A model generated the notes under the pieces. The model saw nothing but the letters and a program-made list of their open reading frames with translations. It made no database searches and had not been told where the DNA came from. Position numbers and translations under genes: made by a program. From Chloroflexota bacterium (GTDB lineage Bacteria > Chloroflexota > Anaerolineae > Aggregatilineales > Phototrophicaceae), in contig JACRPS010000003.1 of the NCBI GenBank assembly GCA_016223085.1, positions 372,001 to 436,000 on the forward strand: a stretch of DNA of 64,000 nt, written 5' to 3'. Below, one piece after another: positions 30,871 through 39,310 of the stretch (its first letter is position 1; each line of letters opens with the position of its first letter).

Positions 30871-30898
30871 GTAGGGATGAGGTATACCTCGTCCCTAC
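30871..30898. repeat. GTAGGGRC palindrome
   Basis: Arms GTAGGGA and TCCCTAC; inner TGAGGTATACCTCG. It sits at the 3' end of the acetyltransferase pseudogene and overlaps the stop of the methyltransferase. Confidence 0.9.
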
Positions 30899-31716
30899 AC
30901 CCGTTGCAGCAGGCTGTAACGGTTGGCCTGACCGCCTTCGCCGTCGGCGCGGAAGGTGAGAAGCTCGCGCAGACCAGTCGCGGCGACCAGCGCCGCGTGT
31001 TCGGCATCGTCCACGTAATGGCAGTAACGCAGCGCCGTTTGGCCGCGCCGCCAGTCCAGCAGATAATCGTTTGGCTCAGCCGGAACATCGTCCGGCCAGG
31101 GCGCGATGCGCTCCCGAAAGCGTTCGTATTCATAAAAGAGCCAGGCAGCGAAAGCCAGCAGCCCGCCAGGTTTTACGCGCTCCGCCAGCCGCCGCAGCAA
31201 CTCCTGCCGCTGCGTATACCCGGGTACGTGGTGGATGACACCGAACAGCGCCACCAGATCGTAGTCGCCCGCGTCCGGCGGGTTTTCCACGATGTCGCGT
31301 TCTTCCAGCATAATCGTCAATCCCGGCAGCCCACTTAGCGCCGCGCGTGCCCGTTCCAGCAGCGCCGCGCTGCTGTCGACGCCCTGATAGAATAGTCTCC
31401 AGTCTTCAGAAAGTTCCGGGTTCCGAGTTCCGAGTTCCGAGTTAGAAGTGCTGAGTGCTGAGTACTGAGTGCTGAGTTCAGACGACTGATGACTGATGAC
31501 TGATGACTTTGATCTGGTAACTTTCTCGTGCAAAAATACGCCAAAGCGCCCGTTGCCGCAGCCGACATCCAGCACGGACAGCGGCGCGCGCAGGTACGGT
31601 AGCAGCCGTTCCCAGCCGGGCCAGGCAGTGCCGCGCGTCTGGTCGAATTCAGGGGCAGTGATGCGGTAAAATTCGCGGTTGATGGCGTTCAAGCGCCGGA
31701 TGGTTTCTGGGTTCAC
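30895..31716 (-). CDS. Class I SAM methyltransferase, Trm9/ALKBH8-like, with repeat-encoded insertion
   Basis: 273 aa. The N-terminus INREFYRITAPEFDQTRGTA followed by WP resembles that of Trm9-type tRNA wobble-uridine methyltransferases. The SAM motif is VLDVGCGNGRFG (48-59), followed by YQGVDSSAALLERA and FGVIHHVPGYTQRQELLRRL, with a C-terminal LRYCHYVDDAEHAAL. Trm9 methylates cm5U34 to mcm5U34; the substrate of Elp3, encoded 0.8 kb away, is the same uridine. Residues about 66-104 are translated from short tandem repeats (31405-31521) lying between SAM motifs. The fold may tolerate this as a surface loop. Other small-molecule methyltransferases cannot be excluded. Confidence 0.75.
   Translation of the reverse strand: MNPETIRRLNAINREFYRITAPEFDQTRGTAWPGWERLLPYLRAPLSVLDVGCGNGRFGVFLHEKVTRSKSSVISHQSSELSTQYSALSTSNSELGTRNPELSEDWRLFYQGVDSSAALLERARAALSGLPGLTIMLEERDIVENPPDAGDYDLVALFGVIHHVPGYTQRQELLRRLAERVKPGGLLAFAAWLFYEYERFRERIAPWPDDVPAEPNDYLLDWRRGQTALRYCHYVDDAEHAALVAATGLRELLTFRADGEGGQANRYSLLQRV
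31405..31521. repeat. Short tandem repeats translated inside the methyltransferase
   Basis: Three arrays lie side by side: TTCCGAG units, TGCTGAG/TACTGAG units and ACTGATG units. One array, read on the minus strand, contains a 24-base string beginning ACTCAGCACTCAGTACTCAG that also occurs at the start of the gene at 39257. Length is compatible with the reading frame. Confidence 0.85.
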
Positions 31717-31780
31717 AGACGCATTGGTGTCCTACTTTGTGTTGTTGCGCGTGTTTATCTTAACAGAAGGAGGAGATTGA

Positions 31781-32434
31781 ATGAAGCGGATTGTTTGTGG
31801 TTTAGGGGTGCTGCTGGTGATGGTAGCAGCCGTAACAACCGTGCTGGCGGACGAGCAGGCGGAAGGGCGCGCCGGGCGGGCCGAGATGCGTTTTATGCAG
31901 GGCATGATTGACCATCACCAGATGGCACTCGATATGGCGGAGGACTGTCTGGCGAACGCGGCGGGAGATGAACTCAAAACGCTGTGTCAGGCCGTGATTG
32001 ATGCCCAGAGCGCAGAAATCCGCCAGATGCAGGCCTGGCTGAAGGACTGGTACGGCATTGTTTACAACCCGGTTTCGATGGCGACGATGATGCAGTTTAT
32101 GCCGGAAGACATGACCGTTGATGGCGTGATGCTGGGCGGCATGGTGGAAAACGCCGGTCATGGCGCGATGGGGCACGGCGGGATGCCGGAAGGCATGGAC
32201 CCGCCGATGATGATGGGCATGATGGCGGGCCTCAGCCGGTTGGAAGGCCAGGAGTACAACGTCGCCTGGATGGAAGCGATGATTGACCACCACGACGATG
32301 CGCTGAACATGGCCGAACGCCTGCTGCAACGCGGCCAGCACGACGAGCTGCTGGCGCTGGCGCGGCAGATCATCGCCGACCAGACCGCTGAAATCAAAAC
32401 GCTGGAAGGGATGATCGAAAAACAGTCCGGGTAG
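31781..32434 (+). CDS. Exported DUF305 protein, His/Met-rich
   Basis: 217 aa with AAGGAGGAG before the ATG. A signal peptide (about residues 1-23) is followed by two DUF305 four-helix halves. Each has the FMQGMIDHHQMALDMAE or MEAMIDHHDDALNMAE motif and a Q-x-x-EI-x-x-M/L motif. Between them is a Met/His/Gly-rich linker (GHGAMGHGGMPEGMDPPMMM). The fold is ferritin-like, and the HH and Met pattern suggests copper or silver binding outside the membrane. It lies between the methyltransferase and Elp3 genes but is followed by its own terminator (32487-32520). Confidence 0.88.
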   Translation: MKRIVCGLGVLLVMVAAVTTVLADEQAEGRAGRAEMRFMQGMIDHHQMALDMAEDCLANAAGDELKTLCQAVIDAQSAEIRQMQAWLKDWYGIVYNPVSMATMMQFMPEDMTVDGVMLGGMVENAGHGAMGHGGMPEGMDPPMMMGMMAGLSRLEGQEYNVAWMEAMIDHHDDALNMAERLLQRGQHDELLALARQIIADQTAEIKTLEGMIEKQSG

Positions 32435-32486
32435 CTGGCAGACAGGTATTCCGCCCTACGGATCGGTGTTTGAATCTGATAGAATG

Positions 32487-32520
32487 AAAGGGGGCGCAGT
32501 ATGCTGCCCCCTTCGTCATT
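32487..32520 (+). terminator. Rho-independent terminator of the DUF305 gene
   Basis: Perfect stem AAGGGGGC/GCCCCCTT (32488-32495 and 32506-32513), followed by CGTCATTTT. It separates the DUF305 gene from elp3. Confidence 0.75.
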
Positions 32521-32547
32521 TTGGGAACAATCTTTACTGTAAACCGC

Positions 32548-34368
32548 ATGGGACACCGAACGACACTGGATTTAGATAACCACCGCGAACCGCTGCTCGC
32601 CATCCTGCGAACGGTGATCGCGCAGCCCGATTTAACGCGCGCCCAACTGGATACGCTGCTGCGGCGTTATCCCAAAGGCCGCGACGGCACGTACAGCCGC
32701 GACGAACTCATCAGCGCCTACCGCACGTTCGCCGGGGCGGAACTGCCGCCATTTGATGCGGCCATCGTCGAGCGGTTGCGCCGCAAGCCGGTACGCACCA
32801 GTTCCGGCGTCACGCCCGTCACCGTGTTGACCAAGCCGTTCCCGTGCCCCGGCGAGTGTATCTTCTGCCCGAACGACGTGCGAATGCCCAAGAGTTATCT
32901 CTCCGACGAGCCGGGCGCGCAGCGGGCGGAGCAAAACAGCTTCGACCCGTACCTGCAAACCTACACGCGCCTGTTGAGCTACCACAACACCGGCCACCCG
33001 ACCGACAAGATCGAAGTGATTATCCTGGGCGGCACATGGTCGTTTTACCCGGAAACCTACCAAATCTGGTTCATCAAACGTATTTTCGACGCGCTCCACG
33101 ACTTTGGCAGCGGCCTTGACCGCCGCGCCGAAGTTGAGGCCGCACTGCGTGAGGTGTCGCAGCTACACCCGGAGCGCAACGTGACCAGCGTGACGATTGA
33201 CGGGCGGCGGCTGGACGAACGGTACAACGCGGTGGTGCAGCGCGTGTACCGGGACGAAATGGCCCGGTCGCGTGATCTGGCACAGGCCATCGCGGCGGGT
33301 GAGCGCCCCCGGTCGCCGGTGGATGAATATGCCACCTGGGACGAACTGGAAGCGGCGCATCGCCGCAACGAAACGGCGGCCTGCCGCTGTGTCGGGCTGG
33401 TGATTGAAACGCGCCCCGACCACATCAGCGAGGAAGAAGTGCTGCGCGTGCGGCGGTTGGGCTGCACGAAGGTGCAGATCGGTTTCCAGAGTTTGAACGA
33501 TACGGTGCTGCGCCTGAACAAACGCGGCCATACTGTCGCCGCCACACGCCGCGCCGTCAAACTGCTGCGGCAGGCGGGCTTCAAGATTCACGCTCACTGG
33601 ATGCCGAACCTGTACGGCTCGTCGCCCGAAGCCGACATTGACGATTACCGGCTGATGTTCGCTGACCCCGACTTTCGCCCCGACGAACTGAAGGTGTATC
33701 CCTGTTCATTGATCGAAAGCGCCGAACTGATGCAGCGGTACGAGGACGGCTCGTGGCGGCCTTACACGCATGATGAACTGCTGCGCGTGCTGGTCGAGTG
33801 CTTCCGCCTGACGCCAGAGTACTGCCGCCTGACGCGCGTCGTGCGTGATATTCCGTCTACCGATATTGTCGTCGGCAACCAGATGACCAACTTCCGGCAG
33901 GTGGTGGAAAACGAGCTGGCGAAACGCGGCGAACGCAGCCCGGACATCCGCGCCCGCGAAGTGCGCTTCCGCCAGGTGGAAGCGGCGGAACTGCATCTCG
34001 ATGAACTGTGGTACACGTCCAGTTGCAGCGACGAGGTGTTTTTGCAGTTCATCACCGACGAGCGTGACATCGCCGGCTTTTTGCGCCTGTCACTACCGAC
34101 CGAACCGCCGATCACAGATGAGCTGGCGGGCGCGGCCATGATCCGCGAAGTCCACGTGTACGGCCAGGCGCTCGAACTGGGCGAGTCCGCGCCGGGGCGG
34201 GCGCAGCACCTGGGGCTGGGTAAGCAGCTTATTGAACGGGCGGCGGCGATTGCCCGTGACCGGGGTTATCGCCGTCTGGCCGTGATTTCCGCCATCGGCA
34301 CGCGCGAGTATTACCGCAAGCGCGGCTTCGACGACGGTCTGTTGTACCAAATCCGAAAACTCGAATAA
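32548..34368 (+). CDS. elp3: Elp3-type tRNA uridine(34) carboxymethyltransferase (radical SAM + GNAT)
   Basis: 606 aa from ATG at 32548 (an in-frame TTG at 32521 is less likely). The radical SAM domain has Cys100, Cys104 and Cys107 in CPGECIFCPND, followed by MPKSYLSDEPGAQRA, IEVIILGGTWSFYP, CVGLVIETRPDHI and VQIGFQSLNDTVL. The C-terminal GNAT domain has HLGLGKQLIERAAAI and IGTREYYRKRGF. Elp3 uses SAM and acetyl-CoA to form cm5U at wobble position 34. Bacterial Elp3 proteins occur in Chloroflexota, for example Dehalococcoides, and act without the other Elongator subunits. A Trm9-like methyltransferase is encoded 0.8 kb upstream on the opposite strand. Confidence 0.93.
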   Translation: MGHRTTLDLDNHREPLLAILRTVIAQPDLTRAQLDTLLRRYPKGRDGTYSRDELISAYRTFAGAELPPFDAAIVERLRRKPVRTSSGVTPVTVLTKPFPCPGECIFCPNDVRMPKSYLSDEPGAQRAEQNSFDPYLQTYTRLLSYHNTGHPTDKIEVIILGGTWSFYPETYQIWFIKRIFDALHDFGSGLDRRAEVEAALREVSQLHPERNVTSVTIDGRRLDERYNAVVQRVYRDEMARSRDLAQAIAAGERPRSPVDEYATWDELEAAHRRNETAACRCVGLVIETRPDHISEEEVLRVRRLGCTKVQIGFQSLNDTVLRLNKRGHTVAATRRAVKLLRQAGFKIHAHWMPNLYGSSPEADIDDYRLMFADPDFRPDELKVYPCSLIESAELMQRYEDGSWRPYTHDELLRVLVECFRLTPEYCRLTRVVRDIPSTDIVVGNQMTNFRQVVENELAKRGERSPDIRAREVRFRQVEAAELHLDELWYTSSCSDEVFLQFITDERDIAGFLRLSLPTEPPITDELAGAAMIREVHVYGQALELGESAPGRAQHLGLGKQLIERAAAIARDRGYRRLAVISAIGTREYYRKRGFDDGLLYQIRKLE

Positions 34369-34404
34369 TAGAAGGTAGACTCAACAGCGGGAAAGGTGAA
34401 GCTG

Positions 34405-36129
34405 ATGGTTCTACCGCCGTCGCTGGCCGCCGACCTCAACGACCCGAACCGGCGGATAGCGGCTATTTTGATGATCCGGCAGCGCCAACTGGTCGCCGCG
34501 CTGCCGCGTCTGTTCGATTTGCTTGCCGATGACGATGACGGTGTGCGCTGGGCGGCTGCCGATGCGCTCGGTTACTTCCAGCAGCCGGAGGTGATACCGG
34601 CGCTGATTCCCGCCTGCGCTGACCCGAACAAATGGGTACGGGCGGCAGCAGTCCGTTCACTGGGGCGGCTGGCTGCGGGTGAAGCCATGCCCGCCCTGCT
34701 CGAACGCCTGTATGACCCCGAACCAGCAGTGCGTATCGCTGCTGTTCGGGCGCTGACCATTCTGGCCGACCCCGCCGCCATCCCCGCTTTGACGGCGCTG
34801 CTGGCGGACTCGGCCTATGATTGGGCTGGCAGCGGTGAGCGCGTCCGCGACGTAGCGGCGCAGGCGATTGCCATCATCCGGCAGCGCGCCGAAGTGCCGC
34901 CGCTGGTGCCGCCAGTGCCGACCAAGAGTGCCACACAGGAAATTGTCCCGGTCACCGGCGTGGTGGTCGAGCCTGAACGCAGCCCGGTTGATCGCACCAC
35001 CGAGGCAGCCGCTGTGCGCGTTGGCGAGGACGAAGCCGCCGACGAGCCTGTGACAGAGGACGAGGAGATGCCCGACTGGTTGCAGGTAGACGCTGCCGGA
35101 CCACCTTCTGCCGCCGATCTACCGGATTGGTTGAAGGCGCTGGATACGGATGAGGCGCTGGATTGGTTGGGCGACTCGTTCGCGGCTGCCGCGCCCGAAG
35201 CCGAGCCGCCGCCTGCTCCGGCGTCACCCCCTCCCCAGGCTGTGCCGGTGCCTGCCGCGCCACCCACGCCGCATCCGCTGTCAGAAGTGAATTTTTCAGC
35301 CTATTATCCCCATGCAGTGCAGCCGGAACGCCGCTATGGCCTGTACGTCTACGCGCATCTGCCAGATGTGGCGGACGCGGTGCAGCAGGATGCCGCGCAG
35401 TTCCGGGCCGCGCTTGGCGGTCAGCTCCCGCCGCCGAAACTGGCCCGCCAGCCGGCGCGCCTGGAAGCCGGCACGCCTGTCACCGTGATGCTGGAGTGTG
35501 ACGACCTGGAGTTTGAGCCGGTGGCGCTGACCAAACGCTGGAAACCGGACTGGGTGCGGTACGACTTCGCCTTTACCGCCCCGGCGCGTCTGGCGGGGGA
35601 TACGCTGTTCGCCCGTGTGTCGGTGATGGTCGGCGGCTTGGAGATCACCGCGATCAAATGCCCGATTGACATCACCCCCGCGCCGGTGATGCAGGCCAAT
35701 GCTAATCCGCTGGCTGCCGCGCGGCTGTCCCACACGACGGCGAAACTGTACCAGCGCATCTTCGTGTCGTATTCACGGCGCGATCAGGAAGTGGCGGAAA
35801 CCTACCGGCTGGCACAGATGGCGCTGGGCAATGACGTATTTATGGATTCGTATTCCATCCGTGTGGGGGAAGACTGGCGCGCGGCGCTGGCGCGGGCGAT
35901 TGACGAGGCCGACACGTTCCAGTTGTTCTGGTCGCCCAACGCTGCCGAGTCGGAAAATGTCCGGCACGAGTGGGATTACGCGCTGCGCTACCGCTGCCCG
36001 GACACGCGCTGCGAGTCGTTCATCCGGCCTGTATACTGGAACCAGCCTATGCCCGCGCCACCGTCGGAACTGGCGCATCTGCACTTCCGATATGTTCCGT
36101 TTACCACCGCGCCGGTGATTGACGACTAA
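34405..36129 (+). CDS. HEAT-repeat, beta-domain and TIR-domain fusion
   Basis: 574 aa from ATG at 34405 with AAAGG at 34392-34396; GTG at 34396 is an alternative. HEAT/PBS-lyase-like repeats cover residues 1 to about 170 (VRWAAADALGYFQQPEVIPA and similar). An acidic Pro-rich linker with DWL motifs (MPDWLQV, LPDWLKAL, LDWLGDSF) leads to a beta-rich domain (about 294-430, starting VNFSAYYPH). The C-terminal TIR domain (about 450-574) starts RIFVSYSRRDQEVAETY and has Glu522 in NVRHEW where active TIRs have the NAD-cleaving Glu. The layout suggests an adaptor or immune-like effector. It follows elp3 by 36 bases, probably in the same transcript. Confidence 0.85.
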   Translation: MVLPPSLAADLNDPNRRIAAILMIRQRQLVAALPRLFDLLADDDDGVRWAAADALGYFQQPEVIPALIPACADPNKWVRAAAVRSLGRLAAGEAMPALLERLYDPEPAVRIAAVRALTILADPAAIPALTALLADSAYDWAGSGERVRDVAAQAIAIIRQRAEVPPLVPPVPTKSATQEIVPVTGVVVEPERSPVDRTTEAAAVRVGEDEAADEPVTEDEEMPDWLQVDAAGPPSAADLPDWLKALDTDEALDWLGDSFAAAAPEAEPPPAPASPPPQAVPVPAAPPTPHPLSEVNFSAYYPHAVQPERRYGLYVYAHLPDVADAVQQDAAQFRAALGGQLPPPKLARQPARLEAGTPVTVMLECDDLEFEPVALTKRWKPDWVRYDFAFTAPARLAGDTLFARVSVMVGGLEITAIKCPIDITPAPVMQANANPLAAARLSHTTAKLYQRIFVSYSRRDQEVAETYRLAQMALGNDVFMDSYSIRVGEDWRAALARAIDEADTFQLFWSPNAAESENVRHEWDYALRYRCPDTRCESFIRPVYWNQPMPAPPSELAHLHFRYVPFTTAPVIDD

Positions 36130-39246: not shown

Positions 39247-39310
39247 GGAATGAGGGATGAGTAAAGAGAATACTCGCCCCTCGATACTCAGCACTCAGTA
39301 CTCAGCACTT
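39231..39310. repeat. Short tandem repeats spanning a gene junction
   Basis: GAGGGATGAGGAATGAGGGA and ATGAGTAAAGAG units cover the stop of the M42 gene and the start of the next; then TACTCAGCACTCAGTACTCA codes for residues LSTQYSAL of the next protein. Confidence 0.85.

Follow-up and report, generated by a model that had tools for sequence, protein, structure and literature searches.

A 64,000-nucleotide stretch of the genome of a Chloroflexota bacterium (assembly GCA_016223085.1, contig JACRPS010000003.1, positions 372,001 to 436,000), hereafter the window, carries a gene for the radical S-adenosylmethionine (SAM) protein Elp3 and, on the opposite strand nearby, a gene for a class I SAM-dependent methyltransferase that resembles eukaryotic Trm9. 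The source genome is a 6.03 Mb draft in 37 contigs, with a completeness of 97.85 and a contamination of 4.44. From comparisons of sequences and gene distributions, we consider it likely (roughly 80%) that the two genes form a bacterial Elongator/Trm9-type route that would convert the wobble uridine of tRNA (U34) to 5-carboxymethyluridine (cm5U34) and then to 5-methoxycarbonylmethyluridine (mcm5U34), replacing MnmE and MnmG.

The features of the locus are as follows.

30895-31716, minus strand: Trm9-type class I SAM-dependent methyltransferase, 273 amino acids, GTG start at 31716; predicted to convert cm5U34 to mcm5U34
31412-31508, within the methyltransferase reading frame: 7-bp tandem repeats (AGTTCCG, AGTGCTG, GACTGAT), an in-frame insertion
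31633-31635, minus strand: codon of methyltransferase Arg28, a substrate residue equivalent by alignment to Arg29 of yeast Trm9 (ScTrm9)
31781-32434, plus strand: DUF305/CopM-family gene between the divergent pair, identified by domain searches
32548-34368, plus strand: Elp3 (radical SAM and GNAT domains), 606 amino acids, ATG at 32548; predicted maker of cm5U34

Both main reading frames were confirmed where the initial annotation had placed them, and the motifs it quoted were found again: the methyltransferase has YRITAPEFDQTRGTA, DVGCGNGRFG, VIHH and RYCHYVDD, and Elp3 has CPGECIFCP, with the radical SAM cysteines. It had described the two genes as encoded side by side. They are indeed close, but they lie on divergent strands, do not form an operon and have the DUF305/CopM-family gene, which is not thought to be part of the pathway, between them.

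The Elp3 protein

The window Elp3 scored 475.7 bits against TIGR01211, above the curated cut-off of 350, and matched PF04055 (52 bits), PF16199 (59.1) and PF00583 (24.8, cut-off 20.7). Its top match in the PDB was 5l7j (E 4.7e-101), which we take to be the structure of Elp3 from Dehalococcoides (DmcElp3). Relative to 5l7j, the window protein has about 79 additional residues, at approximately 187-265, and it lacks the cysteines of RHQKCRCIRCRE, having RGERSPDIRARE instead. The cysteine motif has been described as forming a zinc site that is conserved in Elp3 of bacteria and archaea (PMC6367351). A text search found the motif in 30 of 39 Elp3 sequences and did not find it in the window protein, L082-L086, L098, L110 and L145. 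In the Elp3 tree the window protein and L082-L086, none of which has the motif, form a single clade. The product of Elp3 is reported to be cm5U (PMC13315578, PMC7663514), and archaeal Elp3 makes cm5U34 in vitro (PMC7663514).

Relationship of the methyltransferase to Trm9

Pfam assigned only generic methyltransferase domains to the product of 30895-31716. No NCBIfam model reached its cut-off for this protein or for the Aggregatilineales (Chloroflexota) protein of locus L085, the matches being weak and generic. When the window sequence alone was searched against the PDB, the top match was Trm9 of Y. lipolytica (5cm2_Z; 26.1 bits, E 4.1e-5).

Two profiles were built for the family, for which 71 of 80 retrieved loci were retained and 9 judged non-members. 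Profile A1 holds 35 orthologues from 37 extracted proteins (one incomplete protein and one with unknown letters were omitted, and the window reading replaced L001), while profile A2 holds 55 of the 71 family loci, from several phyla, with incomplete or odd ones omitted. Among 177,635 PDB sequences Trm9 was the best match to both, at 61.6 bits over positions 25-223 of 243 for A1 and at 112.6 bits (5cm2_Z, E 1.4e-31) over positions 26-230 of 233, nearly the full length, for A2. Most of the 59 non-Trm9 entries among the 60 listed A2 matches align mainly to the SAM-binding core. The likeness to Trm9-type enzymes, seen at first by eye, was thus upheld by the profiles, which place the family closest to Trm9, nearly end to end, with modest margins.

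Residues R29, H115, R241, Y243 and N271 of ScTrm9 have been mutated, with impaired tRNA binding and activity as the outcome (review PMC5372719). The window copy has R, H, R, C and N at these positions, four of the five being kept; its His162 is the equivalent of H115. The ScTrm9 numbering is based on a yeast sequence that we assume to be correct, and all five residue letters fit it. Across 89 bacterial rows, which include at least one duplicate because L019 and L068 are apparently one contig (both 24,051 bases, contig number 425), R29 is Arg in all 89, H115 is His in 78, R241 is Arg in 86 and N271 is Asn in 72. An N-terminal motif occurs in 93 and a lid motif in 72 of 94 rows, a set that counts Trm9 and the archaeal sequences, and neither motif is found in the 23 outgroup methyltransferases, although this test is biased by the motifs having been taken from the family itself.

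Pfam, structure models (mean predicted local distance difference test score, pLDDT, of 95.2 for the L085 protein) and the fold matches of the L085 model agree on a class I SAM methyltransferase fold. We rejected the fold as proof of Trm9 identity, as class I methyltransferases tie: VIA-align gave Z of 19-21 for all 50 entries listed for the L085 model, with Trm9 outside them, a result that excludes nothing.

In a tree of 67 methyltransferase rows, the bacterial family, Trm9 and three euryarchaeal rows are separated by a branch with support 98/91 from 22 other methyltransferases. These 22 outgroup rows sample methyltransferases narrowly and are no survey of them; for eukaryotic Trm9 the rows were one PDB fragment and, in this first tree, one further sequence.

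Co-occurrence of Elp3, the methyltransferase and MnmE/MnmG

We counted Elp3, MnmE and MnmG over their cut-offs in 100 genomes drawn evenly from the same class, Anaerolineae. The methyltransferase was present in 39 genomes, Elp3 in 45, MnmE in 36 and MnmG in 35. All 39 genomes with the methyltransferase have Elp3 (Fisher 9e-22). MnmE or MnmG was found in 38 genomes, none of them with Elp3 (Fisher 1.2e-14), and conversely none of the 45 Elp3 genomes has either protein. The pattern holds when the genomes are grouped into 44 taxonomic families: 17 have both genes, three have Elp3 only, 19 have MnmE/MnmG only, five have neither system and none combines Elp3 with MnmE/MnmG (family-level Fisher 1.7e-9 and 3.3e-8).

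The window genome itself, at 97.85% completeness, has no match over either the MnmE or the MnmG cut-off; its one MnmE-model match reached 118.9 bits, over positions 205-336, below the cut-off of 252.6. MnmA was found over its cut-off in 97 of the 100 class genomes, this one included.

The association of Elp3 with the methyltransferase recurs in a candidate-phyla class, that of G119 (the genome of L104, a Portnoybacteria metagenome-assembled genome, MAG). Among its 93 genomes Elp3 occurs in 24 and the methyltransferase in 23, all of which have Elp3 (Fisher 6e-21), and it occurs in none of the 69 genomes that lack Elp3. Here the methyltransferase was counted at 174 bits or more; a further 13 genomes had matches of at most 99.7 bits, mostly to the SAM core, which were treated as paralogues.

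Some genomes have neither system. Neither Elp3 nor MnmE/MnmG was over cut-off in 17 of the 100 class genomes, among them every genome sampled from families f4, f9, f11, f34 and f40 (12 genomes), which would have another U34 enzyme or none. In the candidate-phyla class, 69 of 93 genomes lack Elp3 and all 93 lack MnmG; with MnmE not searched there and genome completeness not given, most of this class may be without a known pathway to C5 modification of U34. Separately, the methyltransferase of L090, an 'Omnitrophota' MAG, resembles those of the Patescibacteria L091 and L094, and its genome has MnmG and lacks Elp3; the L090 contig is perhaps misbinned.

Gene order and probable transfer

The two genes are also neighbors in most genomes that have both. 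In the class sample, 31 of the 39 pairs are head-to-head within 2 kb (the window genome included), one lies on a single contig 762 kb apart, and seven are on separate contigs. Of 23 candidate-phyla pairs, 21 are head-to-head within 2 kb, one is convergent and one is about 10 kb apart. Distances were measured between the matched parts and not between start codons, and the pair of G081 was counted with an Elp3 fragment below cut-off at a contig end. Among the 71 named family loci, Elp3 lies upstream on the opposite strand in 49, within 700 bp in 47. The proximity pointed out in the initial annotation is common among elp3 genomes, at 31 of 39 and 21 of 23 of those with both genes.

The window keeps the head-to-head arrangement with one gene interposed. 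In two close relatives the corresponding intergenic gap is 30 bp (L086) and 680 bp (L085). The latter is the closest of the rows compared for both proteins, with 65% identity in the methyltransferase and 77% in Elp3.

In the Elp3 tree the window and two Chloroflexota relatives group with two 'Deltaproteobacteria' MAGs and a Pacebacteria MAG, with support 100. In the methyltransferase tree these members recur in one clade (support 100/97) together with four further rows, one from Chloroflexota and the others from Dojkabacteria. These matching cross-phylum clades suggest that the gene pair moved jointly between phyla.

Proposed pathway

The pair occurs mostly where MnmE and MnmG are missing, which suggests that these bacteria complete the first letter of the anticodon in some tRNAs as eukaryotes do. 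In the proposed pathway, the predicted stand-alone Elp3 would use SAM and acetyl-CoA to carboxymethylate C5 of U34, giving cm5U34. The Trm9-type methyltransferase would then methylate the carboxylate of cm5U34 in a SAM-dependent reaction, as Trm9 does, giving mcm5U34. With MnmA also encoded in the genome, mcm5s2U34, the 2-thio form, would probably be the end product in the tRNAs for Lys, Glu and Gln. The two proteins would take the place of MnmE and MnmG. The pair has been inherited, and probably also transferred, as a head-to-head unit across Chloroflexota, Patescibacteria and a small number of other lineages.

Yeast Trm9 works with Trm112. The Trm112p-like domain PF03966 was found in 87 of the 100 class genomes by a domain search that is short and unspecific, and was not found in three of the 39 class genomes with the methyltransferase. 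In the window genome it gave three weak matches of 23-24 bits inside frames of 294-507 amino acids. No clear free-standing Trm112 was found there. The earlier remark that no Trm112 gene was in view means little for a stretch of 64 kb, and the three weak matches lie elsewhere in the genome.

From these comparisons we infer the reactions, which tRNAs are the targets, the transfers and that no Trm112 partner is needed. The comparisons support the two-step wobble-uridine pathway that the initial annotation had proposed, with mcm5U34 as its presumed product, and the exclusion of MnmE/MnmG extends the case beyond the argument made there.

Weighing of alternatives

Several observations, here and with the alternatives below, weigh against the proposed pathway. 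No Elp3 is seen upstream in 22 of the 71 named loci; 14 of these have about 5 kb of upstream sequence, and the others end nearer. Among 50 genomes from outside Anaerolineae, a set selected for carrying the methyltransferase and for which completeness is not given, 47 have Elp3 and three do not, and MnmG is present in two, once beside Elp3 (G109, an Ignavibacteriales MAG). In the candidate-phyla class the exclusion of MnmG is without contrast because MnmG occurs in none of the 93 genomes. The PF03966 search of the window genome gave no clear free-standing partner of the Trm112 kind. The separation of the family from 22 other methyltransferases, which stood in the first tree, was less stable on rerunning, with one long-branch row intruding each time: when the outgroup was reduced, og_L158 (branch 4.3) grouped with L116, and when og_L158 and og_L160 were removed, og_L138 was placed among Trm9 and archaeal rows. 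The tree was dropped as sole proof of Trm9 identity because long-branch rows shift the placement, and it is kept as support only.

The alternative that survives best concerns the window copy, which may have been inactivated or impaired by its repeat insertion while the pathway is real in the family. We hold this to be unlikely, and it is compatible with the proposed pathway for the family as a whole. The methyltransferase bears an in-frame insertion of about 40 residues, built of 7-bp tandem repeats and absent from the other 34 A1 rows, and similar repeat-derived matches occur elsewhere in the genome. The reading frame and the conserved motifs are nevertheless intact. In the model of the window protein (mean pLDDT 89.0) the insert (approximately residues 71-100) is a low-confidence loop located after the helix that follows the first SAM motif, and the remainder is of high confidence.

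A second alternative, which we regard as quite improbable, is that the methyltransferase partners Elp3 at U34 and makes something other than mcm5U, with a different C5 side chain or a different tRNA position as its target. The equivalent of ScTrm9 Y243 is not conserved, being Cys in the window and Tyr in 20, Cys in 36 and Val in 20 of the 89 rows, and six of the 45 class genomes with Elp3 (G009, G021, G057, G077, G085 and G096) dispense with the methyltransferase. This alternative is opposed by the presence in the window of the R29, H115, R241 and N271 equivalents and by the known product of Elp3, cm5U (PMC13315578, PMC7663514). In addition, 5-carboxymethylaminomethyluridine (cmnm5U) is not expected, as MnmE and MnmG were not found over cut-off in the window genome.

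That the methyltransferase is an unrelated small-molecule enzyme near elp3 by chance is very improbable: the library matches are generic, the A1 margin is modest (runners-up at 56.3, 55.7 and 53.6 bits), the A2 runners-up begin with two phosphoethanolamine methyltransferases from plants (98.2 and 93.7 bits, both aligned in two domains), followed by the archaeal methyltransferase 3sm3 (89.1 bits in one stretch, positions 38-231), and several small-molecule methyltransferases rank as high as Trm9 by fold (Foldseek with the L085 model placed 3sm3 first and Trm9 at rank 7, with a template modelling score by target of 0.76), but no NCBIfam cut-off was reached by the window or L085 protein, the two genes co-occur and adjoin head-to-head across phyla, Trm9 is the best profile match over nearly the whole length, and the family-derived lid and N-terminal motifs, biased as they are, are absent from the outgroup.

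Surroundings of the pair

A gene for a HEAT-repeat protein with a C-terminal TIR domain (34396-36129) lies directly downstream of elp3. An AGTGCTG-type repeat is found again at 39279-39309, and repeat-like translated matches occur at several other sites in the genome. A promoter scan of the gap between elp3 and the methyltransferase gene gave one promoter-like site, against a shuffle mean of 0.7, which is not above chance. No tRNA genes were found within the 64-kb window.

Relation to known systems

The pathway resembles eukaryotic Elongator with Trm9-Trm112 or ALKBH8 in that an Elp3 with radical SAM and GNAT domains would be followed by a Trm9-type SAM methyltransferase, and the methyltransferase keeps four of the five Trm9 residues discussed above, with Cys in place of Y243 in the window. 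It differs in being bacterial, in having genes that are usually adjacent and in the lack of a clear free-standing Trm112 in the window genome. The stretch from VPW/LDW to RYxH is short in the window methyltransferase and in 5cm2_Z, and long in the yeast Trm9 sequence used for the numbering.

Archaea such as Haloferax and Sulfolobus likewise have a stand-alone Elp3 with a putative Trm9 homologue. These homologues were noted in 2008 and are clustered in S. solfataricus (PMC2584109), and mcm5U34 has reportedly been documented in H. volcanii (PMC7663514). In contrast to the archaeal pair, the one described here is bacterial, is mostly head-to-head, and would replace MnmE/MnmG while acting alongside the bacterial MnmA. 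MnmE/MnmG and Elp3/Trm9 are unrelated enzymes with unrelated chemistry. Both act at the same position and in the same role, the xm5U34 modification (PMC7663514).

According to a 2020 review, U34 is modified by MnmE/MnmG in most bacteria, Dehalococcoides is the bacterial clade with Elp3, and direct evidence for xcm5U34 in Dehalococcoides is lacking (PMC7663514). A 2026 paper adds that Elp3 alone is conserved in numerous bacteria (PMC13315578). Dehalococcoides mccartyi Elp3, the best PDB match of the window protein, is similarly a bacterial Elp3 without Elongator, but the excerpts of PMC7663514, PMC6367351 and PMC13315578 name no methyltransferase partner for it, and the window Elp3 is set apart by its extra length (187-265) and missing cysteine motif. 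A 2017 review reported finding no relatives of Trm112-dependent methyltransferases in bacteria. Among the titles and abstract openings listed in searches of an open-licence library, we found no description of a bacterial Trm9 or of a bacterial Elp3-Trm9 pair. Whereas bacterial Elp3 alone was already known, the methyltransferase partner, the conserved gene pair and the exclusion of MnmE/MnmG appear to be new.

Implications

If the proposed pathway is correct, a two-gene route replaces MnmE/MnmG in many uncultivated bacteria and offers a minimal system for the chemistry of Elongator and Trm9. It would also assign a function to a family of methyltransferases described in general terms only by the searched libraries, and it makes possible a direct test, the detection of mcm5U in a bacterium. 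The finding would further bear on the origin of the eukaryotic pathway. We lean toward a picture in which a sizeable share of the bacterial domain, comprising many Anaerolineae families and many Patescibacteria, decodes with eukaryote-like mcm5U and mcm5s2U at the wobble position, supplied by a mobile two-gene Elp3-Trm9 cassette that replaces MnmE/MnmG without Elongator scaffolds and perhaps without Trm112, and in which the eukaryotic pathway would have been elaborated from a prokaryotic pair of this kind.

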